Positions 4,602 through 33,187 of a stretch of DNA of 33,187 bases are shown piece after piece; position 1 is the first letter of the stretch, and every line of letters begins with the position of its first letter. The stretch is from Bacteroidales bacterium (GTDB lineage Bacteria; Bacteroidota; Bacteroidia; Bacteroidales; UBA12077), in contig JAUWQL010000025.1 in NCBI GenBank assembly GCA_030611105.1, forward strand, positions 1 through 33,187. Direction: 5' to 3'. A program made the translations under genes and the position numbers. Under the pieces are notes generated by a model, which saw only the letters and a program-made list of their open reading frames with translations, was not told where the DNA came from and did not search any database.

Positions 4602-4609
4602 AAATGATG

Positions 4610-4673: not shown

Positions 4674-4689
4674 ATAGTAAATTAACATT

Positions 4690-4720: not shown

Positions 4721-4740
4721 TTCTTAACAAAGATTTCTTC

Positions 4741-5796
4741 TTACTTTTCCTTTTTCGAAAATAGCCTGATTAACCAATTTCTTTTAACAACGTTTGCTGC
4801 TTCTTCTACTTCTTTTGCACTTTTGTTTACATTTTGTACAGCAATTTCAATACTGTCAGCAAAAGCGGTATCATAAATCAAACGTGCAATTAATCCCTGA
4901 CCTTCATTTATTTCATTTGTAATTTTTACAAGATTATCAGATAATATTTTGGCTTTTTCAGTTGTGTAATCCAGATTTTTACCTACTCTGCTTAGTCCGG
5001 AAGTAAAAGTTGTATCAGTGAATATTTCACCAAATAATCCCTGCCCACGATTTATCTGTTCAGTAATTTCAACCAGATTTTGTGTTGATTTTTGCAGATT
5101 TCCTCCGGTTAAAAATAATTGGTTTGCCAAAACGGTATCTGATAAAAGCATTCCAATGGTTCCTTCTTCCTTAGAAATCTTATCTGTAATATCTGCAAAG
5201 TTATTTGTAAGTTTAGCCGTATTTTTGCCAATTCGACTAAGATTATTTGAGAATGAAGTATCGGCAAATAATTTCCCGAAAGCACCTTCGCCGCGATTAA
5301 TTTTATCAGTAATTTCTGCCACGTTTTTAGTAATTATGGCAGTGTTTATACTCGATGTATTTAACTGTCGAAGAATTTTGTCTATTTGAACAACTTCAAT
5401 TGTTTCAAGAATATCTCCTTCTTCAATAATATCAACATTAATGCTCCCAGTGTAAATGTTAACTATCTTATTCCCCATTAAACCCTCTGATCCAATCTCC
5501 ATTTTAGAATCTTTTCGAATAAATTGCCTTACATTTTCCTGAATTGATATATCTACTCTAACCAGGGAATCATTAATTATTTGAACTTTAGAAACAGTTC
5601 CCACGTTTATACCTGAAAAACGTGCGTTATTTCCTACTTTCAGTCCGCTTATATCAGTAAAAATACCGCTTATCTGGATTTTTTTACTAAAGATATTAAT
5701 TTGGCTTCCTATGTAATAAATACCAAGGATAAATAATAAAACTCCAATTGCAACAAAGAAACCAAGCCTGATATTATGTTTTTTGGTGTCACGCAT
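4741..5796 (-). CDS. MCE/MlaD family protein
   Basis: This is the substrate-binding component of an Mla-type ABC transporter that moves phospholipids between membranes. It is 351 aa. One N-terminal transmembrane helix (about residues 12-30) anchors it in the inner membrane, and an MCE domain follows at about residues 39-117, including FTDISGLKVGNNARFSGINVG. Residues 160-330 carry four repeats centred on [NS]-x-x-[EQ]-G-x(7)-[DS]-T, starting at 167, 208, 249 and 297, i.e. 41, 41 and 48 residues apart. They lie in long amphipathic helices likely to extend into the periplasm. The protein is well beyond the roughly 180-aa E. coli MlaD. It is the third gene of the operon, 11 bp after the ATPase gene. 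Confidence 0.9.
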   Translation of the reverse strand: MRDTKKHNIRLGFFVAIGVLLFILGIYYIGSQINIFSKKIQISGIFTDISGLKVGNNARFSGINVGTVSKVQIINDSLVRVDISIQENVRQFIRKDSKMEIGSEGLMGNKIVNIYTGSINVDIIEEGDILETIEVVQIDKILRQLNTSSINTAIITKNVAEITDKINRGEGAFGKLFADTSFSNNLSRIGKNTAKLTNNFADITDKISKEEGTIGMLLSDTVLANQLFLTGGNLQKSTQNLVEITEQINRGQGLFGEIFTDTTFTSGLSRVGKNLDYTTEKAKILSDNLVKITNEINEGQGLIARLIYDTAFADSIEIAVQNVNKSAKEVEEAANVVKRNWLIRLFSKKEK

Positions 5797-8830: not shown

Positions 8831-10018
8831 TTATCCTCGTTTTTCTCGTTGTTGTAATTTAAATGCCTGAAAATCCAGACCTAATGTAAATCGTACGGTA
8901 TTAGCTAAAGGATTATTTTGTTTAACAGGAATCAAATACGAAAAATCGATAGTGAAAACATTAAGTCTTAAACCGGCACCAACCGAAAAATATTTCCTGT
9001 TACCTTTAGTTTCATGTTCGTGAAAATATCCGGCACGAACAGCAAATTGATTAGCATACCAGTATTCTGCGCCAACGGAGTATTTAATTTCGTGCAGTTC
9101 TTCTTTCCAGCCACCTGGCGCATCGTAAAAAGATTGAATCATTCCTTCAAGGACTGAAACATCGGCATCTTTACCAGCAATAATAATGTCACCATCCATT
9201 ATTGGAGGTGTGGGAACTAAAAACTTATTTATATCCAAAGCTAAAGTTAACGAATTATATTCATCAATATTATATTTTAATGCTGTACCAATTTTTAAAT
9301 TTGTTGGTAAAAAATCCTTTTGAATATCGGTATATGAAATTTTATTTCCAATATTTGAAATATTAATACCAAATGACCAGGTAGCATTTTGTTCTCCCAG
9401 TTTAAGTTTATCGTTGAAATAATACATTGACACATCGGCAGCAACAGCGTTACCCGCTTTTGTTTCTCCTCCCGCAACTATGGCTCCACCTGTAATATCG
9501 GATCGGATATACCTGAATGCAACTCCTCCAGAAATTTTTTCAGAGAATGCTCTGGCATAGGTTACATCAAATGACATTTCGTAAGGTGTATGTTGCCCGT
9601 TATATTCTCCGAATTCATCTGTAAACTGAATATCTCCCAGGTCAAAATATAACAATGTTACAGCTACTGTTTGTTTTTTGTCAATTCTTTTATAAAAAGA
9701 TAAATACCCTAAGTTTATATCATTTACCAAATTTCGTAACCATGGAGTATACGATACAGAAAGTCCCATATCACTATCAATAAAAGCATATTTTGCCGGA
9801 TTCCAGTGCATTGAATTATAATCAGGCGAGGTAGCTGCACCAACATCACCCATTGCTCCGGCTCTTGAATCAGGAGCAATTGTTAAAAACGAAGCAGAAT
9901 ATTCGAGTGGATTATTTGCTCCGGCCAGTTCCTCTGTCGTGATATCTCCATTCTGGCCATGCATAGTTTGTCCTAAAAAAGTCAAAAATACAATTGCAAT
10001 AAAAATTTTCTTTATCAT
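8831..10018 (-). CDS. porV: type IX secretion outer membrane protein PorV (LptO)
   Basis: PorV is a FadL-like outer membrane beta barrel that shuttles T9SS cargo from the Sov/SprA translocon to the PorU sortase and anchors the attachment complex. This copy is 395 aa with a signal peptide ending in HGQ (about residue 22). The family block SASFLTIAPDSRAGAMGDVG is clear at about residues 41-60, followed by the MHWNPAKYAF segment and alternating barrel strands, ending with aromatic strands before a polar KLQQREKRG tail. It lies directly downstream of porU, the usual pairing. A promoter in the porU-porV gap (10043-10072) could drive it separately. Confidence 0.94.
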   Translation of the reverse strand: MIKKIFIAIVFLTFLGQTMHGQNGDITTEELAGANNPLEYSASFLTIAPDSRAGAMGDVGAATSPDYNSMHWNPAKYAFIDSDMGLSVSYTPWLRNLVNDINLGYLSFYKRIDKKQTVAVTLLYFDLGDIQFTDEFGEYNGQHTPYEMSFDVTYARAFSEKISGGVAFRYIRSDITGGAIVAGGETKAGNAVAADVSMYYFNDKLKLGEQNATWSFGINISNIGNKISYTDIQKDFLPTNLKIGTALKYNIDEYNSLTLALDINKFLVPTPPIMDGDIIIAGKDADVSVLEGMIQSFYDAPGGWKEELHEIKYSVGAEYWYANQFAVRAGYFHEHETKGNRKYFSVGAGLRLNVFTIDFSYLIPVKQNNPLANTVRFTLGLDFQAFKLQQREKRG

Positions 10019-10076: not shown

Positions 10077-13000
10077 TTATTTTAGAATAACAAGCTTTTC
10101 AATTTTCTTAACTGTTTCTCCATCAATTGTTCTAACCTTGATTTGATATATATAAACACCTCTTCCGATTATATCTCCAAAGTCATCAAGCCCATTCCAG
10201 TTTATAGGTTCAGAACGAAAAGCATTTGAGTTTATTATGGTATTAATTGTTTTTACAAGTTTGCCTGAAACTGTAAAAATTTGAATTAGAATTTCCAAAT
10301 CTTCGTTAGGCCTGTTGTGATCGAAATAAAATGAGGTTTGTTCGGTAAATGGATTAGGATAATTAAATAGATTTTTTATCGCTAAATTTTCTGACTCAGC
10401 TACAATAAAATCCAGGTTTTCTTCAGATGAATTATTATAAACATCCCAAACTTTTAATTTTAAATTATGATCGCCATCTTCCAGTTCGGAAAATAAATAT
10501 TCTATCTTTCCTTTTTGATAATCGTCAATATCAGATTCATAGTAATCATTTAAAACAATAATATTATTGCTATTATTATCAAGTGTTATGGTAATGTCAT
10601 GGCCTATACCATTTCCGACAGTATTTATACCGCTACTATCTGTAAGTACAGCAAATAATCTTGGGTTTTCGTCAGTAACACCACCTGAAACAAAGTTTTC
10701 ATCATTCATATATAATTGAACATTCGGGCCAATATTGTCGAGTTCTGCATTATCGTTTGAACCGCCAATTATAAAATCATCAAAATAACCTTTTGCATCG
10801 TTATTTGTGCTTAAAGAGTAGTAGCTTATTTTACCATTATCAAAATGGTAAGAGATATCTTTAGGAACAACAAAACTAAACTGAAATTTCCCGTTTATAA
10901 CACTTGCTTTTCCCTTATAAAGTATATTATTCTGAGTCTGAAATTCCATTGGGTTACCACCATCATTCCCCAAAGTAGTTATTGTTCTTTCTTTATCTAA
11001 TACCAATGGATATACTATGCCATTGTACGAAGACGCTAAAACACCGGAATTATTTTCTATATGCCCGTGAAAGGTAACTTTTGTTAATGCGTTTAAGGTA
11101 TCGGTATAATTACTTACGCTATTATGATTTATTGAATCGGTAATAATATTGTATTCCGGTAATGGCATTTTTAATGCAGGATCGCCTAATAAAGTAAAGT
11201 TTCGTTTATTATTTTCTGTTCCGGAAGCGTTTTTTGATAATCTCATGATATCACCTAAAGATCGAGTATCTCCTTTGTAATCTTTTTCAAAAACATAGTT
11301 GTAAAAATTTCGATTTAAAGTATAGTTAGGACTTGAATAAACCAGCCTGGTTGTTGAAAACAGAGCGATACCGCCACCATTTGGGTTAAGCAATACCAGT
11401 TCGCCTGCCGAAGTATATTGATGATTATCGAAACGACTAAATTCGCAGGTTGCAGTCATAAATACTGCAAGTTTATCGAAATTTACCAGGGAGTTAATAT
11501 CATCGATAGAAAGTACCCGCTCATGTGCTAATCCACTTTCTCCTCCATGCCCGGTATAATTAAAAATCAAAATGCCATTGTTAATTTCATCATTTATTAA
11601 CCTGTTAACTTCAGGGTAACTTTCAATAATGGCCGATGACTCTTGTGGGAAGGCATCGAGATATAATTTATTAATAAAGAAATAATGATAGCTTGTATCT
11701 ACGAAAGTTGCTAAACGATCAGCATCGCGCATATGAATATTATTGTCTTCGTCATCACCAACAAAACATATTGAATTAATCCAGTCTCCTTTATTTTCAA
11801 TGTTTAAATATGATTTTATTTTCTCAACTATTTGTTGAGCCTCTTCAGCTGATTTAACAGGGAGCCTTCCAATTCCGATATCGACTAAACCGGAATTGTC
11901 AGCTTCTACATTATCTGTAGCATCAAGCAATCCAAAAAAATCATCTGTTACAAATGAGGTAGTTGGATTTAAAGAATTTTCTGACTGATAAGTTAAAATG
12001 TAATTTATATTACTGGCAGTTATTGATTTGTGATCGTAAGAACCATCTCCTATAAATAATAAGTATTTTAATGTGTCGGTAGTGGATGGACGATCGTAAA
12101 TCATTCTGACAAAATTTCTGATTGCTGTAGCATCAGACGTTCCGGATGAAAATTCATTAAAAATTTGTTCCGGAGTAACGATTACAACTGATAACCCATC
12201 TTGTTGTTCGTGGATATCTGCTATTTCATTTGCCTGTGAAATAAAATCAGGATGTGTAACTATAATCATATCCCGATGATTAATACTATGCAGATTCTGA
12301 TTTTCAATATTTCCAACTAATTCTGGAAGTAGAAAATTGTCGGGATTAAATGCAATAAATTCGTTTAAACCGGGATTAACAGTTACTTTTATTAAAATTG
12401 AAGAACCAGACAAGTCGGTTGCCAAATTTTCAGGTTGATTTGGGTTTGTAACATCCCATACTTTTGTTGATGAACCCGTATTCTGGATTTCAAATTCAAT
12501 AATTTTCGGTGTCGTTTCGGAATTAAAATATCTAAAAAGAAGTTGATCATCACTCATCGATAATTGACGTTCTGCATTTATAGTAATATAATCGAGCCAA
12601 CCTTCTGACGAGGAAGAAGATTTATTATAATTTATGGTAATAGTAAAATTATCGGTTGAGCTTGTAAAATTACCTTCAGCTATATTTCTAATTGCATAAG
12701 TAGATGTGTATGAGCTCATATTTACAGCTGCTATTTCCGGGTTTGCAATTGTTTGATAACCTGATGTGATATTGAATGTTGTATTAGCCGATGATCTTGC
12801 AGCTAAAGCCGTTTTCAAACGAATAGGAGATGACTTTACAAGATTTGGAAACTCAAACTCAAAACTATAATTAGTTGTTATATCAAAATGTTCACCAAAC
12901 CATAATTGACCTGATTCAAGTAGATTCTCCTGTTCAATTTCATGATGAAGAAAGTCTGTAAAAGTAGTGTAGGTTTCGATGGTACTCCCAACAGGATTAG

Positions 13001-13895
13001 TAATTGAATTTACTGTACTTAATGAACCAACATCAGTTGTTAAAAAGAAATAGTTATAAATGGAGTAAATGTGTTTTGCTAAATAATAAAAGTTATCATC
13101 TAAATTGTATTGCCATTTGTCGGGCCCATTAGCGTAGAACAAAACATAATCACCATCATTAAAAATTCCATCACTCCCTTTATCAAAGTAAATCGGGTTT
13201 TGAATTAAATCATCCTGGCAAGGTTCTGTGTTAAGTATAGGGAGCATTCCTGAAGAATTACCATAAATCTTTAAATTACCCGGATTTGTAAACCCCATAT
13301 CAATTAATTCGGAATAAGATATTTTATAAATTCCGTCTTGATTTAACCTGATTTTTACCCAACTACCATTTTTAAGCACTGATTCTGAGATAAAACTTTT
13401 AGTTTTTAAACCAGCCTTTACAACAGGGGTTCTTGGTATTATCTCTATATTAAAAGAAACAACTTTTTCGATTTGTCCGTTTAAACGATTGTTCCTTAAG
13501 GGTAATATATTTAATTGTATGTACGCTTGTTTTCTTTTATAACTAATTTTTGATTCGTATGAAATATTTTCAGGAATTTGGTTCTTATATTTTACAATTG
13601 CCTGTTCTTTACCTGAAAGCGTTTCATACTTAATATTTGTGACTTTCAGTTCGACATTTGGCGAACTTACTTTTATTAGCTCAAAATAATACGGATAAAA
13701 ATTTTCATGATTATAATAACATGCATTTTCAAAAAACAGAAATTCTGTTTTATTAATATTTTTCTGGCTAAGCTGGTAATAATGCGAAATTGTTTTGGGC
13801 GAATCCCAGTTTATTTTTCGGTTTAATGTTCTTTTTTGACCAAATGTGTATAAAATGATGAAAAATAATAGACTAAAAATGAGTATTCTTTTCAT
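10077..13895 (-). CDS. porU: type IX secretion sortase PorU (C25 gingipain-like peptidase)
   Basis: PorU is the cell-surface T9SS sortase: it removes the C-terminal signal of cargo proteins and joins them to anionic LPS or other acceptors. From the chosen ATG it has 1272 aa. The signal peptide covers residues 1-20 (LLFFIILYTFGQ). The C25 peptidase domain lies around residues 540-910, with catalytic H783 in FNYTGHGG and C817 in FMTATCEFSRFD. The C-terminus (about residues 1175-1272) has the YPNPF motif, TVSGKLVKTI, NWNGLDDFG and IGRGVYIYQIKV, i.e. a T9SS type A sorting domain, which PorU itself normally retains. A start 30 bp upstream (13925) was rejected because it precedes the signal peptide. 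Confidence 0.95.
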   Translation of the reverse strand: MKRILIFSLLFFIILYTFGQKRTLNRKINWDSPKTISHYYQLSQKNINKTEFLFFENACYYNHENFYPYYFELIKVSSPNVELKVTNIKYETLSGKEQAIVKYKNQIPENISYESKISYKRKQAYIQLNILPLRNNRLNGQIEKVVSFNIEIIPRTPVVKAGLKTKSFISESVLKNGSWVKIRLNQDGIYKISYSELIDMGFTNPGNLKIYGNSSGMLPILNTEPCQDDLIQNPIYFDKGSDGIFNDGDYVLFYANGPDKWQYNLDDNFYYLAKHIYSIYNYFFLTTDVGSLSTVNSITNPVGSTIETYTTFTDFLHHEIEQENLLESGQLWFGEHFDITTNYSFEFEFPNLVKSSPIRLKTALAARSSANTTFNITSGYQTIANPEIAAVNMSSYTSTYAIRNIAEGNFTSSTDNFTITINYNKSSSSSEGWLDYITINAERQLSMSDDQLLFRYFNSETTPKIIEFEIQNTGSSTKVWDVTNPNQPENLATDLSGSSILIKVTVNPGLNEFIAFNPDNFLLPELVGNIENQNLHSINHRDMIIVTHPDFISQANEIADIHEQQDGLSVVIVTPEQIFNEFSSGTSDATAIRNFVRMIYDRPSTTDTLKYLLFIGDGSYDHKSITASNINYILTYQSENSLNPTTSFVTDDFFGLLDATDNVEADNSGLVDIGIGRLPVKSAEEAQQIVEKIKSYLNIENKGDWINSICFVGDDEDNNIHMRDADRLATFVDTSYHYFFINKLYLDAFPQESSAIIESYPEVNRLINDEINNGILIFNYTGHGGESGLAHERVLSIDDINSLVNFDKLAVFMTATCEFSRFDNHQYTSAGELVLLNPNGGGIALFSTTRLVYSSPNYTLNRNFYNYVFEKDYKGDTRSLGDIMRLSKNASGTENNKRNFTLLGDPALKMPLPEYNIITDSINHNSVSNYTDTLNALTKVTFHGHIENNSGVLASSYNGIVYPLVLDKERTITTLGNDGGNPMEFQTQNNILYKGKASVINGKFQFSFVVPKDISYHFDNGKISYYSLSTNNDAKGYFDDFIIGGSNDNAELDNIGPNVQLYMNDENFVSGGVTDENPRLFAVLTDSSGINTVGNGIGHDITITLDNNSNNIIVLNDYYESDIDDYQKGKIEYLFSELEDGDHNLKLKVWDVYNNSSEENLDFIVAESENLAIKNLFNYPNPFTEQTSFYFDHNRPNEDLEILIQIFTVSGKLVKTINTIINSNAFRSEPINWNGLDDFGDIIGRGVYIYQIKVRTIDGETVKKIEKLVILK

Positions 13896-14036
13896 TAGGT
13901 TTGATAATTTTATACAAAGAAACAAAACTTTATTAAAGTAATAATGAATTTTTAAATTCGTTATCTTTAAATCATAATCAATAAAACGGCAATCAATAAG
14001 TTTATATTGTAAGAATAATTACGATATTTATTTTAA

Positions 14037-15011
14037 ATGAAAAGGATTTTTATAATAATAATGGTATTAATTATAAAACAGTCATACTGTCAGGATGTTG
14101 AATTCTCGCAATATTACGCAAATCCTTTATACTTAAACCCTGCTTTTGCAGGATCAGATAATTATGCCAGAGTTTCATTAAATTACAGAACAATCTTACC
14201 AACATCATTTGGCGATTACAGCACTTATAGTGCATCCATCGATAAATATTATGATGAATTAAGTGGAGGTGTAGGATTTCAGATAATGAATGACAGGCAG
14301 GCGCAAGGAACAATTAATGATTTGGGATTTAATCTGATATATTCTTATCATGCTAAACTAAGGAAGAAATGGGCTATTGCTACAGGTTTTAGACTTGGAT
14401 ATAATATTAAAACCTTAAATGGGAATAATTTGGTATATCCAGATATGATCGATCCTATTGATGGTGTTTCATCTTCCGGAATGGAAAGCGGGCTTTATCA
14501 AAAATCCTTATATTTCGATTTTTCATTTGGAATGTTAACATGGTACGAAAATTATTATTTAGGTGTTGCTGTTGATCATCTTACAAAACCACAAATCTCC
14601 TTAGGGAGCGATGATCCTGGTCCTATCGGAAGAAAATACACCCTTCATGGAGGTATGGAAATTCCATTTTATAATAGCCTTGAAAGAGTACATATGACAT
14701 TATCTCCAAATCTTATTTTTCAAATGCAAGGTGCATCATCAAAATTAAATTTAGGTGTTTATTTAAATAAGAATTATTTAACAAGTGGAGTTTGGTTAAA
14801 AACAAATACCAGTTTTGATTTAACAGGTTGTGTATTAATGTTGGGTTATGTAACTGATTATTCTATATTTGCTTACAGTTATGATGTACCTTTTTACCTG
14901 GGGGGATTAAGTGGGGTTATTTCAGGAGGCCATGAGGTAACCTTTTTGTATAAATTCATGTATAAAAGAAAGAAGAAAAAAATAAAGGCAATAAAATGTC
15001 CTAAAATTTAG
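14037..15011 (+). CDS. PorP/SprF family T9SS outer membrane protein
   Basis: This 324-aa outer membrane beta-barrel protein has a signal peptide (about residues 1-18, ending YCQ). The family signature FSQYYANPLYLNPAFAGS lies right after it, followed by repeated amphipathic strands and a lysine-rich C-terminus (KRKKKKIKAI). PorP/SprF proteins work with T9SS; some, such as SprF, are dedicated to one surface cargo, while PorP belongs to the core machinery. Several paralogues usually occur per genome, so I cannot say which this is. It is divergent from porU across 141 bp, and 74 bp upstream of the gldJ-like gene. Confidence 0.9.
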   Translation: MKRIFIIIMVLIIKQSYCQDVEFSQYYANPLYLNPAFAGSDNYARVSLNYRTILPTSFGDYSTYSASIDKYYDELSGGVGFQIMNDRQAQGTINDLGFNLIYSYHAKLRKKWAIATGFRLGYNIKTLNGNNLVYPDMIDPIDGVSSSGMESGLYQKSLYFDFSFGMLTWYENYYLGVAVDHLTKPQISLGSDDPGPIGRKYTLHGGMEIPFYNSLERVHMTLSPNLIFQMQGASSKLNLGVYLNKNYLTSGVWLKTNTSFDLTGCVLMLGYVTDYSIFAYSYDVPFYLGGLSGVISGGHEVTFLYKFMYKRKKKKIKAIKCPKI

Positions 15012-15012
15012 T

Positions 15013-15020
15013 TATATTTG
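15013..15020 (+). promoter_or_regulatory. second -7 box upstream of gldJ-like gene
   Basis: TATATTTG, a perfect match to TAnnTTTG, begins two bases after the stop of the porP-like gene. No TTTG box is seen at the normal spacing upstream, so this is weaker than the site at 15035-15063. Confidence 0.35.
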
Positions 15021-15034
15021 TATGTCAAATCTTG

Positions 15035-15063
15035 TTTGTAGAGAAAAAAATATATTATATTTG
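15035..15063 (+). promoter_or_regulatory. consensus promoter for gldJ-like gene
   Basis: TTTG (15035-15038), a 17-bp spacer and TATATTTG (15056-15063) match the Bacteroidota housekeeping promoter exactly. The predicted start near 15070 leaves a leader of about 16 nt before the ATG at 15086. Confidence 0.8.
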
Positions 15064-15085
15064 AAATAAAAAAAATAGCATTACC

Positions 15086-16591
15086 ATGAACGTAAAGTTA
15101 AACATTTTCCCTTTAGTACTTATTAGTATGCTTATTGTAACCGGTTGTAGCTTATTCGGTGGAGGGAACCAACCTGCAAAAACAGGAAGTGAATCTCAAA
15201 CCACAGGATGGGAATATAATGATCCTGACAATGGTGGTTTTGAGGTTAAAACAGATTATGTTGAAGAAGCTGGTCCGGGTTTAGTCCTTATCGAGGGAGG
15301 TACCTACACTATGGGACAAACAGAACAGGATGTTACTTATGACTGGAACAATGTACCAAGAAGAGTTACCATTGCTTCATTTTATATGGATCAGACCGAA
15401 GTAAGAAATGTTGATTATAGAGAATATTTGCATTGGATAAGAAGAGTATTTGTTGATTATCCTGAAGTTTATAAAAATGCATTACCTGACACTTTAGTTT
15501 GGAGAAGTCCTTTGGCATATAATGAACCTTACGTTGATTATTATTTCAGGCATCCTGCATATAATGAATATCCGGTTGTTGGTGTTGATTGGTTACAGGC
15601 AAATGATTTTTGTGTGTGGAGAACCGATCGTGTTAATGAGATGATGCTTATTAATGAAGGTATTCTTGATGTGGATCCTAATCAAATTGGTCGTGAGAAT
15701 TTCAATACAGGAGCTTATCTTGCAGGGCAATATGAAGGTCTTGTTATTGAAAACTTACCTTCTTTAGATCCTAATAAAGAAAGTCGAAGAGTAACAATGG
15801 AAGATGGTATTTTACTTCCTAAATACAGACTCCCAACAGAAGCAGAATGGGAATATGCCGCTGTTGCATTAATTGGAAACACTTATGACGAAAGATTATA
15901 CGAAAGAAGATTATATCCCTGGGATGGACATAATGTTCGTAAACCACCTCCAGGAAGAGATATGGGTATAATGATGGCAAACTTTAAACGTGGCCGTGGT
16001 GATATGATGGGTATGGCAGGAGATTTAAATGATAATGGATCGATTACGGTTCCTGTTAGTTCGTTCTGGCAAAATGATTTTGGATTATATTGTATGGCTG
16101 GTAATGTTAACGAATGGGTATTAGATGTTTATCGTCCACTTTCTTATGAAGATGTAGCTGATTTCCGCCCATTCCGTGGTAATGTTTTTGAAACTTTTGT
16201 AAGAAATGAAGATGGAAGTATAGCAGCAAAAGATAGCTTGGGTAGACTTAAAACTCGTCCTGTTACTGACGAAGAGGCTGCAGGTAGAACTAACTACCAG
16301 AGAGCCGATTATATTAACTATAGAGATGGTGATTTGATGTCAAGAACTGATTATGAAAGTCAGGAAGCTGCAAGAGGTGGTGCATCAACCGGACAAATGT
16401 ACTCGCAGGAATTAGGAGATATGGTTTCTTTGGTTACTGATAAGGTTAGAGTATATAAAGGAGGATCATGGAAAGATAGAGCCTATTGGTTAAATCCTGC
16501 TTCACGAAGATTCTTAGATCAGGATGAAGCGCGCGATGATTTAGGTTTTAGATGTGCCATGGTTAGAGTGGGTAGTCCAAGTGGTAGATAA
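15086..16591 (+). CDS. gldJ: GldJ-like gliding/T9SS lipoprotein (SUMF1/FGE fold)
   Basis: This is a 501-aa lipoprotein. The lipobox is IVTGC with C21 as the lipidated residue, followed by a SLFGGG linker. The rest is a formylglycine-generating-enzyme-like (SUMF1) domain: GPGLVLIEGGTYTMGQT (about residue 68), FYMDQTEVRN, KYRLPTEAEWEYAA, LYCMAGNVNEWVLD, and the C-terminal VYKGGSWKDRAYWLNPASRR with LGFRCAMVR. In T9SS and gliding bacteria such lipoproteins are GldJ or its paralogue GldK/PorK, structural parts of the outer-membrane-associated ring rather than enzymes. I prefer GldJ because porV-porU lie near and murF follows; GldK is usually followed by gldL, gldM and gldN, which are absent here. 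Confidence 0.75.
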   Translation: MNVKLNIFPLVLISMLIVTGCSLFGGGNQPAKTGSESQTTGWEYNDPDNGGFEVKTDYVEEAGPGLVLIEGGTYTMGQTEQDVTYDWNNVPRRVTIASFYMDQTEVRNVDYREYLHWIRRVFVDYPEVYKNALPDTLVWRSPLAYNEPYVDYYFRHPAYNEYPVVGVDWLQANDFCVWRTDRVNEMMLINEGILDVDPNQIGRENFNTGAYLAGQYEGLVIENLPSLDPNKESRRVTMEDGILLPKYRLPTEAEWEYAAVALIGNTYDERLYERRLYPWDGHNVRKPPPGRDMGIMMANFKRGRGDMMGMAGDLNDNGSITVPVSSFWQNDFGLYCMAGNVNEWVLDVYRPLSYEDVADFRPFRGNVFETFVRNEDGSIAAKDSLGRLKTRPVTDEEAAGRTNYQRADYINYRDGDLMSRTDYESQEAARGGASTGQMYSQELGDMVSLVTDKVRVYKGGSWKDRAYWLNPASRRFLDQDEARDDLGFRCAMVRVGSPSGR

Positions 16592-24297: not shown

Positions 24298-25587
24298 ATG
24301 AATTATCAGGAAACACTTATTTGGTTATATAGTCAATTGCCTATGTATCAACGACAGGGTGAGGCAGCCTATAAAGCAAATCTCAATAATACCTTGGAGC
24401 TGGATGAATATTTTGATCATCCACATCGAAAATTTAAAAGTATTCATGTTGCAGGAACCAATGGTAAAGGTTCTGTTTCTCATATGCTGGCATCTGTATT
24501 GCAGGAGTCGGAATATAAGGTTGGACTTTACACATCGCCGCATTTAAAAGATTTCAGAGAGCGAATAAGGATAAACGGGCAGATGGTTTCTGAAAATTTC
24601 GTTGTAAAATTTGTGAAAGACCATCGGGCAAAATTTGAAAAAATTAAACCATCCTTTTTCGAAATGACCGTTGCAATGGCCTTTGATTATTTTGCAAAAG
24701 AAAATATTGATGTAGCAGTTGTTGAGGTGGGAATGGGAGGAAGGTTAGATTCTACAAATATCATTCACCCTGATTTATCCATTATTACGAATATAAGTTT
24801 AGACCATACTTTTTTTCTAGGAAATTCTCTTTCCGAAATTGCCAAAGAAAAGGCAGGTATAATTAAAAAAGACACCCCGGTAGTTATTGGTGAAACACAA
24901 ACTGAGACAGAGACTAGTTTTAAGAATTTTGCTCAAGAAAAACAAACAGACATTTATTTTGCTGATCAGTATTATAAATCTGAATATGCTTTGTTATCAA
25001 TTGATAACAAACAGGTTTTTAATATAAATAAAAATAATAATATAGCATACTCAGATTTGAAATTAGATCTTTTAGGGACTTATCAGAAAAAAAATCTACT
25101 GACTGTTTTACGATCTATTGATTTGTTAATCGAAAAAGGATATAACATAAAAAATCAAGCAATATACAATGGCTTAGAAAGGGTTTCAAAGAATACCAGC
25201 TTGCAAGGCCGCTGGCAGATACTGGGCTTTAATCCGACCATAGTTTGTGATACAGCACATAATCTGGATGGGATAACTTTAGTGCTGAATCAATTAAATC
25301 AAACACCACATAAGAATTTGCATATTGTTGTTGGTGTTGTTGATGATAAAAATATTGGAAGTATTTTAGAAATATTACCTAAAAACGCAAAATATTATTT
25401 TACAAAAGCAAATATTCCTCGTGCTTTAGATCAAAATATATTAAAAGAAAAAGCCAATAAATTTGACTTAATTGGAGATGCATACGGAAGAGTGCAGGAA
25501 GCATTCGTGAGCGCGAAAGAAAATGCAGGAGTTAACGATTTGATTTTCATTGGAGGTAGTACTTTTGTTGTCGCCGAAGTACTATGA
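24298..25587 (+). CDS. folC: folylpolyglutamate synthase / dihydrofolate synthase
   Basis: FolC joins glutamate to dihydropteroate and/or extends the polyglutamate tail of folates, in the cytoplasm with ATP. It is 429 aa, normal for the family. The Mur-ligase-like P-loop GTNGKGS lies at residues 53-59, followed by VGLYTSPHLKDFRERIRING, the VEVGMGGRLDSTN block and ISLDHTFFLGNSLSEIAKEKAGI, where the family normally has carbamylated Lys. The C-terminal domain contains DTAHNLDGI and VVGVVDDKN. Whether it has both activities cannot be told from the sequence. The tRNA promoter lies 25 bp after its stop. Confidence 0.95.
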   Translation: MNYQETLIWLYSQLPMYQRQGEAAYKANLNNTLELDEYFDHPHRKFKSIHVAGTNGKGSVSHMLASVLQESEYKVGLYTSPHLKDFRERIRINGQMVSENFVVKFVKDHRAKFEKIKPSFFEMTVAMAFDYFAKENIDVAVVEVGMGGRLDSTNIIHPDLSIITNISLDHTFFLGNSLSEIAKEKAGIIKKDTPVVIGETQTETETSFKNFAQEKQTDIYFADQYYKSEYALLSIDNKQVFNINKNNNIAYSDLKLDLLGTYQKKNLLTVLRSIDLLIEKGYNIKNQAIYNGLERVSKNTSLQGRWQILGFNPTIVCDTAHNLDGITLVLNQLNQTPHKNLHIVVGVVDDKNIGSILEILPKNAKYYFTKANIPRALDQNILKEKANKFDLIGDAYGRVQEAFVSAKENAGVNDLIFIGGSTFVVAEVL

Positions 25588-25673: not shown

Positions 25674-25745
25674 GGGAGATTTCCCGATAGATATCGGGAC
25701 AGCTGGTTCAGAGCATCCCGATTATGATCGGGAGAGTCGCTTGAC
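25674..25745 (+). pseudogene. tRNA-like remnant carrying two 18-bp palindromes
   Basis: The segment begins GGGAGATT like the tRNA-Val 98 bp downstream and shares a 16-bp exact match, CAGCTGGTTCAGAGCA (25700-25715 versus 25784-25799). A palindrome TCCCGATAGATATCGGGA (25682-25699) replaces the AGCT of the 5' D-stem. A second, TCCCGATTATGATCGGGA (25716-25733), sits exactly where the anticodon stem-loop would be. No T-loop TTCGAAT and no 3' acceptor strand follow, so it cannot be a working tRNA. Confidence 0.6.
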
Positions 25746-25771
25746 CAGAGTTCTTTAAAATAAAAATATTA

Positions 25772-25849
25772 GGGAGATTAGCTCAGCTGGTTCAGAGCAC
25801 CTGCCTTACAAGCAGGGGGTCACTGGTTCGAATCCAGTATCTCCCACCA
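25772..25849 (+). tRNA. tRNA-Val (anticodon UAC), CCA encoded
   Basis: The cloverleaf is complete: acceptor GGGAGAT/ATCTCCC, D-arm GCTC...GAGC, anticodon stem CCTGC/GCAGG with loop CTTACAA giving anticodon UAC, and T-arm ACTGG/CCAGT with loop TTCGAAT. The discriminator base is A and the 3' CCA is encoded at 25847-25849. An intrinsic terminator follows 5 bp later. Confidence 0.96.
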
Positions 25850-26144: not shown

Positions 26145-29100
26145 ATGAAGAAAATAATACTCATTTGCTTTATAGCATTATTAGCTTTAAATGTTAATGC
26201 ACAGACAGGACCAGGTGGAGTTGGAAATTCAGATGGAACAAGCGGACAACCCAAAAATGTACTTTGGCTTGATGCAAATACATTAGGTTATGCAGACGGT
26301 GACGATTTAGATATATGGACAGACCTTTCGGGAAATAATAATGATTTAACTCAGGCAACAACTACACTTACTCCATTTTTTATGGATAATGTAACAGATA
26401 ATCTTAACGGACATCCTATTGCAAGGTTTTCAAAAGCCGACAATAGAATTATAATAAATCCTTTTAGTGATATGCCGACATCCGGCATCACTACTTTTAT
26501 TATATATAAAACTTCCGACAGCGGCGACGGGCTTGTTTCTTATAACACAGCAAGCAGAGATAACGCATTTCTTTTATATAATAACAGCTCATTAACTACA
26601 TATCTTAACGGAGGTAATAATAATTCTTCTTATGCATTTAACAGTGGAAGTTGGCAAATAATGTCACATAAATGGAAAAGTAGCGGAGGTGATTTAATAA
26701 TAAACCATAACGGAGACCAGATACATACTACAGCTTTTCAAAATGGAATATCAATACCAACCGGCGGTTGCCTCGCAATAGGAGGCGAGCAAGATGCTGT
26801 TGACGGAGGTTATACTCCAGGACAAGCTTTTCAAGGAGATATTGCCGAAATTATCATGTATAATTCTTTCTTAAACTCTGCACAACGAATAATAGTAGAA
26901 AATTATCTCAGCGAAAAATACAATCTCACTTTTACTACTGGCACAAACGATAAATATACCGGTAACGATGCTGCTTATGTTTACAATATTGCCGGAATAG
27001 GACAAGAAGCCGACGGAGACCACACTCAAACTACTTCCGGGGGATTATACATTTATGAATGGAACTCAAGCCTTGCCAACGGAGAATATCTTATGCTTGG
27101 CCATGATAATACAACTAATAATTCCACAACAATTTATACCGGAGGTGATTTGCCAACCGGAACTGAGGCCTCATGGGCTCGACAGTGGTACGTTGAAAAA
27201 ACTTCTACCGATGGAATCGATGCAAAACTTATTTTTGATTTTAAAGAAGGACTCACAGACGGACAATATCCTGCCAATGTTGCAAATTATGTATTATTAT
27301 ACAGAGCCGCAACAACCGGTAATTACTCTAAAGTAACAGTAGCCGGACAAGGAACTGTTGATGCCGACCAGGTTTACTTTAATATTTCTGATGCAAATTT
27401 ATCTGACGGATATTATACAATAGCTTCCGATGATACTATTAATAGCCCTGTTGAAGGTGTAGCCGGCAGAACCTGGTATGCTCTTGCAAGCGGCGACTGG
27501 GATACCTGGGATTTCTGGACCCTCGACCCTTCTGGTGCATTGCCAAACAATCCTGACCATGAAACTCCTGATGTTATTGATAAGGTAGTTATTCATACCG
27601 GAAAAACCATTACTATTTCGGCAAATACAAAAACAGTAGCTTCTATAACTGTTGATGGAATTTTACAACTCGGCACAACTTCAGGACATAATTTTACCGA
27701 AATTAGAGGAGCTGGAAGGATCAGGCTTGCAAGCGATAATTTCCCTCTCGGCGATGCTACTCACTTTACTTCTGCCGGAGAAGGTGAGGGAACAGTTGTT
27801 TGGCAGGGAGGCTCGTATAACTTATCAACGGCACATACATTCTATAAAATGGAAGTTGATTTAGATAATGCCGCAAATATACTTACCCTGCTTGCCGATT
27901 ATACGATTAACGGAGACATGGTAATTGAAACAGGTATTTTACAAATTAATGATAACGCATCCACAACAAATCTTAATATTGAAGTACAAGGAAATATTAC
28001 AGTTGAGGTTAACGGACAAATTCTGACAGGAACTGGAAATGCACGACATCAATTTGATATGTACGGCGATTTTACAAATAACGGAACTGTAAAATTTACT
28101 AACCGGGTTGCCCCGAATTATACCGCAGAAGCAACAGATGGTATAGTTGATGCAAATTTTTTAAGTGATAATTCCAACCAAACGATTTTATGTAACGGAA
28201 TAACAAATTTTTACCGTATTGAAATTGACAAAGGTGCCGATATGACTTATGAATTAGCAATTGAAGCTAGTGTTGTTGCTAATTTTAAGTTATACGGTTA
28301 TGCAAACGAAGCACACGGAGATGTCGCACAACTTGCAAGTAATGCAAATGCACTCGCTTTAATAAAAGGAACTGTTCGTATAAAATCTAATGTTGAAATT
28401 CCTCATCTTAACAGAAACGGAAATTATAATATTTCCGAAGCTGCAAGGCTTTGGGTTGACGGTGGAACTGTTTCATCAAGTGTCTCTAACTCAATTGTGC
28501 CTTATGGTGTTGCACAAATATCTGCCGGTACTTTTGAAGCATTAGTTCCGCAAGGATTTACACTTAGAGAAAACGGCTCGGTTGTAGTCGAAGGCGGAAC
28601 ATTAAATGCAAATCAAATCAGAACATCTGTATTGGGTCCATCTCATGTAGGAAGTTATATACAAACAGGAGGAACAGCGAATTTACTTGGTACAAATACT
28701 AATACAGATTATTATGTTTTTAATTTAACTTTCCCTGAAAATGTTTTTCAAATGACGGGAGGAACTTTACATATCCACGAAGCACACGGAAAAGGCGGAA
28801 TATTTATTAATTCAGACCCTTCAAATGTTAACGTAACCGGCGGAACTGTAATTTGTGAAATTGACGATTCCGAAGATTTTATAATTACTTCAAGAGCATC
28901 ATTTTGGAATGTAATTATGCGAAATACCACAGCTACTAATGACCATGTTCTTGATGCAGGCGTTAATGTTGGTGCTACTGATGTCAATTTAGCAGCTCAA
29001 CCCCTCGTAGTGCTTAATGATTTAACACTTGAAGGTGCAAATAGTTTAGAATTTATTACAAATAATACTGATGTTTTAATTGGGCGAAATTTCATCATTG

Positions 29101-32100
29101 AAGATGGAGCTACATATACTCATGGAACAAATACTACTAAATTTGTTGGTAGTACAGATAGTGATATTGAAATTGGAGCTACTACCGGAAGCTTAGGATT
29201 TTACAATTTGGAGATAGAAAAAGACCAAAATCCTACATCCGGATCTTATTACGATGTTGAAATTTTAGAATGTACAGGAAGAACTACAGATCCGGCAAAT
29301 GCTGATAATACAATTATTCAAATTTCAAATAACCTTACCATAAATCGTGGGCAGTTTACTGTTCAAAGATATACGGTAAGTTTATTAGGTGATTTATCTA
29401 TTACTGACGGAAAGATGATTTATAATGGTGCACTTCCCGGAAGGATTACACTTGAGGGACCAGCGGCGCAATCAATTACAGGTTCTGCAATTTATAATCC
29501 TGTTTTTGGAAACATTGAATTAGATAATGCTAACGGTGGTACGGTTAATTCAGATATAGAATTAGAGAACTTTATTCTAACAACCGGAATACTTGATCTT
29601 GGTACAAATCGATTAACAATCGACACGAATTTTGTTGAAAATGGTAATGCTGTTGCTTTTAGTGCAACTAAAATGATACAAACATCTGCAGCTCATGGTG
29701 CCAGGGGATTAAAGTTAAAGATGGATGATGATTATACCGGTGGGGCAACAGTTAATTTTCCCGTAGGTTCAAATGGCTACTGGACAGAAGTTGATGTTAA
29801 TATAAATACGTCTGTAGGTAGTGTAACAGGCTATTTAAACATAACACCTGTAAATCTATATCATCCTACAAGACCTAGTGGTGGTTGCGATGCTATTGAG
29901 GGATATTGGAAAACAACATCAAGTGGATTAAGTAGTACTGCCTCAGGTGTGGAATACCAATTCTATAGTTCTTATCCTGATCCTCCGGGTGGAGGAGATT
30001 TCGAATACTTTTTAATTGGTGGTACATGGACTAGAGATGATGGAGCAACAACTCCCGGATGGATAACGTTCGAAGATGCAGACCTGGATGGATTTCCTGA
30101 TGAGGCGGATTTTACTATAGGTAAAAATGCATGTTTTAATAATGTAGACTACGTTTATAGTGTGGCCACCGGTGATTGGGATGCCGGAGCTATATGGAAT
30201 ATTGGAGCTGAACCGGAAACCTATGATTATGTGTATATTAAAGATGGCCATACTGTATCAGTTACAGCAAACGGGCAAGATGCCGGAAAACTTATCGTTT
30301 ATTCAGGGGGAACTTTAGATATAAGTACATTTACCGGTTTAACATACAATATAGTAAAAGGTGGAGGAGAGATTAGAATTTCTTCAAATACAATTCCTTC
30401 GGCCGATTATGAAGATTTTGTATTTAATGATACTGCTATTTTTGAGTATTATGGAGGTACATATATTATACCAACAGATTTAACAGCTTATCCGAATTTA
30501 GAAATAACTGGCACAGGTGCAAAAACACTTCCTAATCAAGATATTATAGTTAAGCAAAATCTTACCATTGATAATGAAACTTTAATTTTAAATGATGGAG
30601 ATGATCTGTTTGTTACCGATACTGTTTTTATAGATAATGCAGGTATACTGCAATATCCTACAAATGCAGATCCTTGTGATATTACAGTTTTTAAATCAAT
30701 TGATTTAAGTGGAAATTCTGCCGCAAATACTATACAGGTAGAATCGGGAGGATCAAATACGGGAAATCATAATTTATATGTTTGGGAAGATATTATACTA
30801 AATGCAAATGCTGTAATCGATCTCTATGATGCTGCCGATAATGCGGTTGATCTTTACTTTAATGGTGATGGTAATTCACAGGTAAATGATGCAGGTGGTG
30901 CATCTATCGATCTTAATAGATTAATAATTGACAAGTCTGTTAATACTTCTGATGTTGATTTTCTTGAAGCATTTACCTTGAATGGACCAACAAATGGATT
31001 AAGTACGGAAAAAGCATTATATCTAATTAGTGGAGATTTAACAATTGATGATGCAGGTACAGATATTAATTTAACAACAGGAGACGATGATTTTGAAATA
31101 CCCGGAACAGCCAGCCTTGAAGTTAAACAAGGTGTAGTAAATGTTTCCGGAGATGACTCCGGTATTTCTCTTGACGGGAAATTACTTATCAGCGGAGGAA
31201 CTGTTGATATGGACGATGCTGTAAACAACGGAAACAATTACATAGAATATTCTGCTTCAGGAAATGCAGAGCTTGTGATTTCTGCCGGCTCACTTACAGT
31301 AGGTTCGCAAATAAGAAGAGGACTGGGTTCTTCAGCAGGTATTTTAACTTATACTCAAAGTGGGGGAACTGTTATTATTGGGAAAAATGCAGCACCCGAG
31401 GGAAACAGGGGTGTTTTTGAAATTCTTAATACCGGAAGTTCATTTACGCACTCAGCTGGTAATTTATATATAGTCCGCAAACAAATAAATCCGACTTTTG
31501 CAACACTTTATCTTGATCCCGAAACAAGCAGTTTAACTGCCGGAACAACAATAACACTTGGTAATGCAAGTACACCGGCAAGTCAGGAGTTCGGTATATA
31601 TTCTACAATTAATCTTCAAAACCTAAGTCTTGATAATACAAGTACAAATAATCCCAAAGCTAAAATGTGGACTGTTCCATTATCAATGGATGGTGAACTT
31701 ACAATTCAAAACGGAACGGAATTTAAAGCAAATGGATTAGACTTGAACCTATATGGCGACTTTACAAATAACGGAACATTTTCAGCTAATCAAAATACAA
31801 CATACTTTAAAGGAACAGCAGATCAGGCAATCGATGGTAATACAACTTTTTATAATCTTACTAACCAAAATACAGCTAACCTTAACCTTGTTGCAGCTAA
31901 TACCGATATTACGATTGAAAACATCCTTACAAACGAATCAGGAAGTACCATAAATGATAATAGTAATGATATTTTTGTTTATGGCGATATTGATATGTCA
32001 GGAGTACATGTTTACGGGGGCGCAGGCGATGGTATTACACTAAATGGAACCTCGCAACAAATAATGACCGGTGATGGAACTTTTGGGAAATTAACAATTA

Positions 32101-33187
32101 ATAATGCAAACGGAATTGATGTGCCTGTAGGTAATGAATTAACAATAAATGATTATTTAAAACTCGAGTCGGGTATTTTCGATATTGGCGGGAATTTATT
32201 AACACTTAATATTAATTGTGTAATACAGGAAGCGAATCCTTTCGGAGCGAATAATATGATACAAACAAATATTTCATTTACCGATAATGGTATTAAAAAA
32301 ATATTCCCTTCAGGTGCTCTTAATTTTATTTATCCTCTTGGTTCGGGTGGAAAATATACTCCTGTAGAAATTATAACTACAGTTAATACAGCCACCGGTG
32401 CATATATTATTGCAAAAGGAGCAGATGAATTACATCCGAGTATCCAGGAAGATGCTGAAGCTCCCGATCCTGAAATAACAGATGCAGATAATGTTTTGCA
32501 ATATTATTGGGTTTTAACAGCAAATGGATTTACAGATATGGATGCTACAGTCGAGATGTATTACGATACCAGTGATGTTGAAGTAACAGCACCGTATGAT
32601 GTTTATGATTATATAACCGCTAAATTATTATCCGATGGAACAGGAAACTGGTATAAATATGATGATGTAAGTAAATTTGATGAGCCAAATCAAAAGTTGA
32701 TTTTTGATATTTCGAATGCTGATGATATTGACATTGCCGGCGATTATACCGCAGGTGTTGATGGTTCCTCGTTTAATGGTGCAATACCCGACCAGGTTCC
32801 ATTATACACTTCAAATGGTTCCGGTACAACAATGGACTGGCATACAGCAGCAACATGGGTGCATGATGCAGGATTACCTGATATCCCGAGAGGAGCGAGG
32901 GTTAGGATTCTTGCCGGAGATATTGTACAAACATTAGTTAATTATATTTCAGCATATACATCTGAGATTAATGGAACACTTGATGTAGGTACTACTTTCG
33001 GAAACAGGGTAGGTGTTGTTTCAGGAACAGGTACTCTTTACACCGAAAGAGGTAGTCTGCCTGCCGGATATTATGAAACATTCTTCTCGGCCAGCGGTGG
33101 AACAATAGAATTTGGAGGCTCTACAGATTATAGTGTTTTAAGTAATATTACACAAGTAAATAATATTAAATTCAGCGAAACAGGCGA
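26145..33187 (+). CDS. giant secreted surface protein, LamG-like plus beta-helix modules (3' end outside window)
   Basis: The frame is open from the ATG to the right edge: 2347 codons without a stop. Residues 1-19 form a signal peptide (LALNVNA/Q). Residues about 36-263 are a LamG/concanavalin-like domain, starting VLWLDANTLGYADGDDLDIW and ending GDIAEIIMYN...VENYLSEKYNL. Residues 264-430 form a second domain often seen behind such LamG domains in Bacteroidota. From about residue 442 the protein consists of glycine-, asparagine- and threonine-rich beta strands with recurring FYNL-E-I type steps, organised as a macro-repeat of about 890 residues. No transmembrane segment or enzyme motif is visible. 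It is probably a cell-surface or biofilm adhesin exported by Sec and then T9SS; the C-terminal sorting domain needed to prove that lies outside the window. Confidence 0.9.
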   Translation, partial: MKKIILICFIALLALNVNAQTGPGGVGNSDGTSGQPKNVLWLDANTLGYADGDDLDIWTDLSGNNNDLTQATTTLTPFFMDNVTDNLNGHPIARFSKADNRIIINPFSDMPTSGITTFIIYKTSDSGDGLVSYNTASRDNAFLLYNNSSLTTYLNGGNNNSSYAFNSGSWQIMSHKWKSSGGDLIINHNGDQIHTTAFQNGISIPTGGCLAIGGEQDAVDGGYTPGQAFQGDIAEIIMYNSFLNSAQRIIVENYLSEKYNLTFTTGTNDKYTGNDAAYVYNIAGIGQEADGDHTQTTSGGLYIYEWNSSLANGEYLMLGHDNTTNNSTTIYTGGDLPTGTEASWARQWYVEKTSTDGIDAKLIFDFKEGLTDGQYPANVANYVLLYRAATTGNYSKVTVAGQGTVDADQVYFNISDANLSDGYYTIASDDTINSPVEGVAGRTWYALASGDWDTWDFWTLDPSGALPNNPDHETPDVIDKVVIHTGKTITISANTKTVASITVDGILQLGTTSGHNFTEIRGAGRIRLASDNFPLGDATHFTSAGEGEGTVVWQGGSYNLSTAHTFYKMEVDLDNAANILTLLADYTINGDMVIETGILQINDNASTTNLNIEVQGNITVEVNGQILTGTGNARHQFDMYGDFTNNGTVKFTNRVAPNYTAEATDGIVDANFLSDNSNQTILCNGITNFYRIEIDKGADMTYELAIEASVVANFKLYGYANEAHGDVAQLASNANALALIKGTVRIKSNVEIPHLNRNGNYNISEAARLWVDGGTVSSSVSNSIVPYGVAQISAGTFEALVPQGFTLRENGSVVVEGGTLNANQIRTSVLGPSHVGSYIQTGGTANLLGTNTNTDYYVFNLTFPENVFQMTGGTLHIHEAHGKGGIFINSDPSNVNVTGGTVICEIDDSEDFIITSRASFWNVIMRNTTATNDHVLDAGVNVGATDVNLAAQPLVVLNDLTLEGANSLEFITNNTDVLIGRNFIIEDGATYTHGTNTTKFVGSTDSDIEIGATTGSLGFYNLEIEKDQNPTSGSYYDVEILECTGRTTDPANADNTIIQISNNLTINRGQFTVQRYTVSLLGDLSITDGKMIYNGALPGRITLEGPAAQSITGSAIYNPVFGNIELDNANGGTVNSDIELENFILTTGILDLGTNRLTIDTNFVENGNAVAFSATKMIQTSAAHGARGLKLKMDDDYTGGATVNFPVGSNGYWTEVDVNINTSVGSVTGYLNITPVNLYHPTRPSGGCDAIEGYWKTTSSGLSSTASGVEYQFYSSYPDPPGGGDFEYFLIGGTWTRDDGATTPGWITFEDADLDGFPDEADFTIGKNACFNNVDYVYSVATGDWDAGAIWNIGAEPETYDYVYIKDGHTVSVTANGQDAGKLIVYSGGTLDISTFTGLTYNIVKGGGEIRISSNTIPSADYEDFVFNDTAIFEYYGGTYIIPTDLTAYPNLEITGTGAKTLPNQDIIVKQNLTIDNETLILNDGDDLFVTDTVFIDNAGILQYPTNADPCDITVFKSIDLSGNSAANTIQVESGGSNTGNHNLYVWEDIILNANAVIDLYDAADNAVDLYFNGDGNSQVNDAGGASIDLNRLIIDKSVNTSDVDFLEAFTLNGPTNGLSTEKALYLISGDLTIDDAGTDINLTTGDDDFEIPGTASLEVKQGVVNVSGDDSGISLDGKLLISGGTVDMDDAVNNGNNYIEYSASGNAELVISAGSLTVGSQIRRGLGSSAGILTYTQSGGTVIIGKNAAPEGNRGVFEILNTGSSFTHSAGNLYIVRKQINPTFATLYLDPETSSLTAGTTITLGNASTPASQEFGIYSTINLQNLSLDNTSTNNPKAKMWTVPLSMDGELTIQNGTEFKANGLDLNLYGDFTNNGTFSANQNTTYFKGTADQAIDGNTTFYNLTNQNTANLNLVAANTDITIENILTNESGSTINDNSNDIFVYGDIDMSGVHVYGGAGDGITLNGTSQQIMTGDGTFGKLTINNANGIDVPVGNELTINDYLKLESGIFDIGGNLLTLNINCVIQEANPFGANNMIQTNISFTDNGIKKIFPSGALNFIYPLGSGGKYTPVEIITTVNTATGAYIIAKGADELHPSIQEDAEAPDPEITDADNVLQYYWVLTANGFTDMDATVEMYYDTSDVEVTAPYDVYDYITAKLLSDGTGNWYKYDDVSKFDEPNQKLIFDISNADDIDIAGDYTAGVDGSSFNGAIPDQVPLYTSNGSGTTMDWHTAATWVHDAGLPDIPRGARVRILAGDIVQTLVNYISAYTSEINGTLDVGTTFGNRVGVVSGTGTLYTERGSLPAGYYETFFSASGGTIEFGGSTDYSVLSNITQVNNIKFSETG
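27492..33187 (+). repeat. protein-level macro-repeat, about 890 residues per unit
   Basis: Each unit opens with a W-rich signature: GDWDTWDFW (27492), GDWDAGAIW (30171) and MDWHTAATW (32832). Each is followed by P...D.V.I..G..[VI] and a GxLxxGT-like strand. The Trp codons of DW lie 2679 and 2661 bp apart (893 and 887 residues). Units 1 and 2 both contain a late NFPVGSNG / FIYPLGSGG block (29754 and 32325). The nucleotide sequences have diverged, so this is old duplication. Unit 3 is cut by the window edge. Confidence 0.7.

Follow-up and report, generated by a model that had tools for sequence, protein, structure and literature searches.

A C-terminal tail common to giant surface proteins and to a companion encoded beside a type B/SprF gene pair in Bacteroidales

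We analyzed a window of 33,187 nucleotides from a Bacteroidales bacterium and found that the giant gene at its end encodes a protein whose C-terminal tail recurs at the C-terminus of the protein encoded by the next gene. The tag appears to couple the giant and this companion of ~310 residues to a dedicated three-gene unit, consisting of the companion, a type B CTD protein and a porin of a distinct PorP/SprF clade. The coupling of tag and triad is demonstrated by comparative genomics, and we favor, by a small measure, the idea that the C-terminal address tag docks giants and companion on an SprF-anchored surface complex, where docking itself is inferred. The giant's frame is best explained as encoding a surface adhesin or stalk protein of ~2,930 residues and ~320 kDa with a LamG-like head and an Ig-like stalk, and we consider this reading, taken as a whole, slightly more probable than not.

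The giant's frame (26145..33187, + strand) was open from the ATG at 26145 to the end of the window, giving 2,347 residues without a stop. The mechanical start of the frame was a TTG 36 codons upstream of this ATG; the ATG itself opens a typical Sec signal peptide, MKKIILICFIALLALNVNA-Q (residues 1-20, 26145..26204, + strand), which was judged by eye on the directly read sequence. As the window is the entire contig C182 of genome G000 (217 contigs, 3.77 Mb, 89.7% complete), the frame runs off the end of the assembly. An exact overlap of 68 bp (33120..33187, no strand assigned) joins the end of C182 in frame to the start of contig C30, on which the giant continues for 585 further residues (C30:1-1824) to a TAA stop at C30:1822-1824, ending in VPDTGPQYHIEDGWSN. 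Joined across C182 and C30, the giant has 2,932 residues, of which 1-2347 lie in the window. The uninterrupted 7-kb frame described in the first-pass annotation is thus real, with no stop or frameshift just past the window, and the signal peptide that it described is plausibly of the Sec type.

Several observations support the join. Super-repeat 3 (head residues 2230-2454; 32832..33187 within the window, + strand; E 1.4e-48 with a profile that includes the joined giant itself) spans the junction, and relatives with the giant on a single contig carry the same repeat at the same place (e.g., 2300-2522 in G012). Single-contig giants in seven relatives had 2,947, 2,970, 3,013, 3,024, 3,082, 3,096 and 4,062 residues, and the genes downstream of the giant agreed with those of relatives. 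The upstream neighbor of the giant (24298..25587, + strand) is a folC-like gene, named from its sequence; folC was also found upstream of the giant in G006, G014, G022 and G024, with identities of 67.6-74.1%, and genes other than folC were found there in G007, G011, G012 and G017.

The domain architecture agreed with the outline given in the first-pass annotation. Its LamG-like domain corresponds to a LamG/pentaxin-like lectin domain (residues 113-247; 26481..26885, + strand) that matched Pfam PF00354 Pentaxin (E 1.1e-14, 55 bits against a cut-off of 25), its unnamed second domain to the segment 266-439, which had no Pfam match at E 1, and its long beta-rich modules to three G8/beta super-repeats of ~890 residues each, beginning at 444, 1338 and 2230, the first two with G8-like heads. 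In super-repeat 1 (residues 444-1337; 27474..30155, + strand; profile E 2.5e-113), G8 PF10162 scored 25.8 bits against a cut-off of 22.9 when the segment was searched and 21.3, below the cut-off, in the whole protein. In super-repeat 2 (residues 1338-2229; 30156..32831, + strand; profile E 5.5e-41), it scored 19.6 bits (E 8.7e-4), under the curated cut-off, and the 123 residues of super-repeat 3 within the window had no Pfam match. Self-BLAST of the giant gave no repeats at E 1e-3; the repeats were seen by a profile built from matches that include the giant itself. The giant accordingly has the features of a G8 and LamG-type surface protein, with Pentaxin over its cut-off and G8 over its cut-off in one segment only.

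The C-terminal part of the giant consists of Ig-like domains. One Pfam Ig-like_POM152 match over the cut-off was found in the part on C30, and AlphaFold2 modeled the last 293 residues as three Ig-like domains (mean pLDDT 94.0), followed by the tail as a low-confidence extension of these well-folded domains, with a pLDDT of 61 falling to 50. Among the structural matches of the three domains, the first and the third were to GhpA, the grappling-hook protein of Aureispira (9flu_A, E 9.6e-10, and 9fly_A, E 3.0e-9; 20-21% identity; TM 0.57 and 0.45 on the query), a likeness that concerns the shared Ig-like stalk fold alone. By sequence, the part of the giant on C30 (P0002) matched no PDB chain at E 0.01.

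The first-pass annotation had proposed a candidate T9SS adhesin, and it was unable to see the tail because the tail lies on the next contig. Neither the type A sorting domain TIGR04183 nor the type B sorting domain TIGR04131/CHU_C was present at the completed C-terminus of the giant or in 33 giant C-termini searched with NCBIfam; therefore, the giant is not a type A or B T9SS adhesin. The part of the proposal that is supported is that the protein is giant, secreted and adhesin-like and that T9SS genes occur in its genome. The same genome gave 36 TIGR04183 and 8 TIGR04131 matches over the cut-off, and the former model thus works here. The giant ends had no NCBIfam matches, and Ig-like_POM152 was the only Pfam family over the cut-off in P0002; a model for cl41395 (type C, ChiA type) was absent from the set. 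A divergent type B CTD at the giant's end was ruled out by hhalign, as 23 giant ends (last 130 residues) showed no profile similarity to 20 type B CTDs (0.7%); without the tag, the values were 0.5% for the giant ends and 0.2% for the companions.

The T9SS genes of the window form a compact T9SS/gliding locus ~10 kb from the giant. A PorP/SprF-family gene (14037..15011, + strand; TIGR03519 E 2.2e-57) lies directly beside gldJ, the two occupying 14037-16591, and porU and porV lie on the other strand. GldJ is a short form of the gliding lipoprotein (15086..16591, + strand; TIGR03530, 400 bits against a cut-off of 382.9), PorU is a long form of the T9SS sortase (10077..13925, - strand; NF033707, 1368 bits), and PorV is the T9SS outer-membrane shuttle (8831..10018, - strand; NF033710 E 5.4e-149). 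This PorP/SprF gene is a second member of its family, is not linked to the tag and is ~25% identical to the tag-linked one.

The tail of the giant, predicted to be disordered, reads TGPQYHIEDGWSN, and the companion ends in TGPIYHIVNTWAN (longer form TPTTGPIYHIVNTWAN). The consensus of the tag is P-x-T-G-P-x-Y-H-I-x-N-x(1-5)-stop, with a conserved part of ~13 residues. TGPxYHI occurred at exactly two sites in G000, the C-termini of the giant and of the next gene, and the reversed-pattern control gave 0. The looser TGxxYHx occurred at 8 sites against 3 for the reversed control, and the other six sites comprised one internal site and five in frames with 1-47 codons upstream. Among the genomes of the family, TGPxYHI was present in 13 of 25, with 25 matches (control 0), all 25 of them C-terminal; one of these, in G017, lies in a frame with only 4 codons before it.

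We then considered the tag beyond the family. The stricter TGPxYHIPN gave 43 matches in 42 stretches among 84,980 species genomes, and all 43 lay 10-14 residues before a stop, a position that rules out a chance motif; two of the 43, in frames of few codons, are probably broken copies. Of the 42 records, 40 were labeled Bacteroidales, Bacteroidota/Bacteroidetes or named Bacteroidota species, and the other two (Acidobacteriota, Woesearchaeota) look like misbinned contigs. An order-wide scan with the short pattern gave 47 matches in 30 of 393 genomes, and its reversed control gave 18 matches in 17 genomes; single short-pattern matches are therefore no evidence, and only C-terminal ones in real genes were used. 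When one locus was read in each of the 25 newly matched genomes, 16 were tail matches and 9 were chance occurrences in very short frames or in unrelated ones (L048, L049, L051-L054, L057, L066, L067). The cultured Perlabentimonas gracilis M08_MB carries two tagged proteins (521 and at least 1,866 residues) on one contig, and its tagged companion adjoins a type B gene on another contig. The strings GPIYHI, YHIPN, GPQYHI, TGPIYH, GPEYHI and GPVYHI appeared in no open-access paper searched, with subscription papers and preprints outside the scope, and searches for a third CTD type or for T9SS cargo that lacks a CTD returned no matching description. Tiny frames ending in a perfect tag were seen in L041 near 15843 (in G017; KEIT-TGPIYHIPNNFNY) and in L090 near 1856, and they are probably broken tagged genes.

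On C30, the giant is followed by the companion (2296-3234; 312 residues, with a signal peptide recognized by eye), a 340-residue protein with a type B CTD (3411-4433; TIGR04131 7.5e-20) and a PorP/SprF porin of the triad clade (4461-5450; TIGR03519 E 5.7e-80). The gene order of a type B/SprF anchoring cluster, in which a PorP/SprF gene comes after the type B CTD gene, is thus present here. The companion had no Pfam or NCBIfam match over the cut-off, nor did any of 31 members at E 1e-3. At full length, it reached Pfam DUF6727 below the threshold (E 6.7e-4; 19.9 bits, with the cut-off at 22.3), and this match was absent at E 1e-3 for the mature companion and for 30 other members. The tail of the companion was also coil in AlphaFold2 (pLDDT 82 then 60), and a search of 72,556 plasmids gave no companion match. 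After the type B gene, two consecutive SprF-clade genes were seen in L130, L131 and L217. Beyond the triad of G000, short proteins resembling REP-associated (IS200-like) transposases, identified by eye at C30:5607-6134 and 9155-9508, flank TPR and beta-lactamase-like genes.

The triad of companion, type B and SprF genes recurs throughout the order. With the HMM cut set at E 1e-6, companion homologues comprised 64 unique rows, 61 of them with the relaxed tail. For the linkage count, companions of up to 600 residues at this E cut were used. Of the 29 rows with 3 kb or more downstream, 28 had a type B CTD gene and then an SprF gene after the companion; counted by gene, the figure is 27 of 28, since the broken gene L047 accounts for two of the 29 rows. 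In the remaining row, L041, the type B and SprF genes lay two short ORFs further on. The triad SprF forms its own clade, with identities of 71-86% in the genus, 38-50% across the order and ~25% to the other PorP/SprF of the window. Its C-terminus, FGDNTRRYRWLNRF, holds no cysteine, and the consensus of 20 aligned sequences likewise shows a conserved RRYRWLNRF; the Cys-X-Cys C-tail of SprB-type gliding adhesin systems is thus lacking in the clade, and movement on a gliding track is not predicted by that feature.

The position of the giant relative to the triad varied. In the genus, giants lay upstream of the companion, directly or with tagged genes between them (G011, G014, G022), and the giant also adjoined the triad in G066, G176, G269 and G343 of other families. 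The giant was apart from the triad in G117, G161 and G256 (on other contigs, the companion being preceded by different genes), in G333 (~160 kb away) and in Perlabentimonas (another contig); the triad of G396 is located at the end of a contig. Tagged giants encoded apart from the triad are as expected of a portable signal with a shared receptor. Tandem companions were present in L187, L188, L189/L195, L190, L191 and L193, and the second tail differed systematically (T[SQG]xIxHxxN, e.g., TSPIQHLKNL and TQPIKHIQNI), as though one triad had two dialects of the tag.

Most companions had been found by the motif, and conservation among these is biased; therefore, companions were also sought with a whole-protein profile. 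At E 1e-3, the profile detected companions in 16 of the 25 genomes of the family, in G016 only via the end of its giant; at E 1e-8, it detected them in 27 of the 295 genomes of the order. Among 20 unique companions found by homology only, 10 ended in TGxxYH[ILV] and 18 fit [TS][GSQD]xxxH[ILV], a relaxed form that was written after those tails had been seen; the two tails outside even this form were TGPIYYV and TGPIYTI.

Tails within a genome shifted in parallel, as in G004 (TGTIYHV and TGQMYHV), G173 (TGPIFHI and SGPNFHI) and G270 (TGTIYHLPNQ and TDTIYRNPNQ), in all of which the upstream tagged frames are cut by contig or locus ends. For 15 pairs and 8 positions, with the class-specific fourth position left out and one giant tail per genome chosen by us, we counted 98 identities within genomes against a shuffled mean of 87.7, a value reached by 0 of 20,000 shuffles; this figure is inflated by shared ancestry, which the test does not remove any more than gene conversion, and several of the giant tails come from cut frames. 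A BLAST comparison had suggested that companion and giant share only the tag (21 residues), a view corrected by profile comparison of the terminal Ig-like domains, for which hhalign gave 98.1% with the tag and 85-86% without it. The terminal domains of giant and companion are thus probably related beyond the tag, as judged from these profiles, and the functional unit could be domain plus tail. The giants' last domain gave 69% and 95% against other Ig-like domains of the same giants; it is about as close to them as to the companion's and therefore is not a special domain by sequence.

Cases against the coupling were also seen. With records grouped by accession prefix, fifteen genomes showed a giant-type tail in the scan of 84,980 genomes, and 10 of these also showed a companion tail there. 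Among the remaining five, G414 and G011 have a companion, G415 has, at the start of a contig, a triad SprF adjoining a type B gene, and G413 has a tagged giant with neither a companion nor a triad-grade SprF; G416, a 0.9-Mb record labeled archaeal with a tagged giant, is probably misbinned. In G016, the triad SprF lies at a contig end, the contig of the giant ends soon after the gene, and the giant ends early, at TGPTYHLP. Two weaker companion-like tagged proteins, in L101/L124 and L075 (E 2.4e-4 and 3.7e-5), with no type B gene adjoining, fall below the E cut of the linkage count. G018, rated 100% complete in 80 contigs, lacked both TGPxYHI sites and a companion, and its best SprF match (6.3e-53, compared with 5.4e-164 in G000) was not of triad grade.

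Type B CTD proteins are described, in excerpts of PMC12618676 and PMC9143113, as secreted and anchored through a cognate PorP/SprF. On this model, the T9SS would export the type B protein of the triad, and its cognate SprF would retain it at the outer membrane, as in the known type B/SprF pairs. The tails of companion and giant would be bound by the type B/SprF complex, which would form a common surface dock, and giants encoded elsewhere in the genome might use the same dock. We infer binding of the tag, with the type B/SprF complex as its partner, and export of the giant via the T9SS. A broader statement, which we put forward tentatively and at slightly under even chances, is that TGxxYHI is the portable address tag of an unrecognized Bacteroidales surface-display system, in which any protein with an Ig-like domain and the 13-residue tail at its end, whatever the position of its gene, would be brought to and held by one dock of companion, type B protein and special SprF.

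The main rival, which we regard as unlikely, takes the terminal Ig-like domain and tail as a new T9SS export signal, additional to types A, B and C, that the translocon or the clade SprF would read directly, so that the tag would act in export and not in docking after it. Known T9SS CTDs are likewise C-terminal and Ig-like in passages of PMC11285876 and PMC11969387, and one shuttle can serve several cargos, as parts of PMC12618676 state for Fjoh_1677. The giant carries no other recognized outer-membrane export signal, and the hhalign values between the terminal domains of giant and companion, high even without the tag, also fit such a signal. However, neither the giant ends nor the companions resemble type B CTDs at the profile level, CTDs are folded whereas the model shows a disordered tail, and the separate type B gene between companion and SprF in nearly all loci is left unexplained.

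We consider it improbable that the tail is a processing site, at which a sortase such as PorU would cut T|G and join the giant to a surface glycan, in the manner of LPXT|G sortases and PorU. P-x-T-G recalls LPXTG, and the window encodes the long form of PorU. Sections of PMC11969387 give PT/GI as the preferred CTD cleavage consensus of Prevotella intermedia. Yet Y, H and I are strongly conserved after the presumed cut, which is odd for a discarded part; the 10-14 residues from T to the stop include no hydrophobic segment or basic tail as in LPXTG substrates; the giant has no PorV-binding type A CTD; and several second companions have S and Q in place of G. Little credence is likewise given to an ordinary stalk protein, in which conservation of the last strand and tail would serve folding or stability and not sorting, and the linkage to type B/SprF would be historical. 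That the tail sits on generic Ig-like domains agrees with this explanation, but giants away from the triad in other genera share the tail of the triad companion, tails co-vary within genomes, and the tail is predicted to be disordered, not packed.

Docking on a type B/SprF complex has partial parallels in known systems. SprB/SprF of Flavobacterium johnsoniae and PG1035/PorP of Porphyromonas gingivalis are alike in having a giant adhesin, a Sec signal and a cluster whose last genes encode a type B CTD protein and its SprF, whereas here a separate protein of ~340 residues bears the CTD and the giant ends in a short tail. The sprC-sprD-sprB-sprF operon likewise combines a large adhesin with accessory genes and sprF, as Rhodes reportedly found in 2011. 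SprB bears a type B CTD itself according to excerpts of PMC12618676, unlike the giant. The SprF of F. johnsoniae has a Cys-X-Cys tail that is disulfide-linked to GldK in the portion of PMC12635249 concerned, whereas the clade SprF ends in RRYRWLNRF without cysteine. The T9SS signals described in passages of PMC10202324 are types A, B and C, all C-terminal on secreted proteins of Bacteroidota, and the CTDs described in parts of PMC11969387 are folded and lie within the last ~100 residues, with a short form of 43-55 residues in Prevotella intermedia. In contrast to these folded CTDs, the tag has ~13 conserved residues, is predicted to be disordered and matches no type A or B model. LPXTG and PEP-CTERM sorting tags are, likewise, short C-terminal motifs common to otherwise different proteins of one genome, but they have a transmembrane segment and a basic end, neither of which is present here. 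We filed the tail as a putative form of C-terminal addressing tied to type B/SprF, with the giant itself outside the criteria of that system.

The tail was in no catalogue searched, the companion belongs to no family over the cut-off, and none of the 33 giant ends was recognized in NCBIfam. T9SS cargo of Bacteroidota is recognized largely by CTD models, and tagged giants are invisible to the NCBIfam ones (0/33). If the portable-tag reading is true, cargo would be separated from anchor, in contrast to described T9SS cargos with their own folded CTD. Should the tag prove to be a targeting signal, 13 residues would be enough to predict a class of very large adhesins together with their anchor. 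The tag may also serve as an experimental handle on how giants without a CTD reach the surface and on what type B/SprF complexes do beyond their own substrate.

A tRNA-Val gene lies at 25772-25849, between the folC-like gene and the giant. Just before it, at 25675-25750, the window holds tRNA-like pieces (gggagat..., gctggttcagagca...) that were not called as a tRNA and that, by eye, look like a decayed or partial copy.
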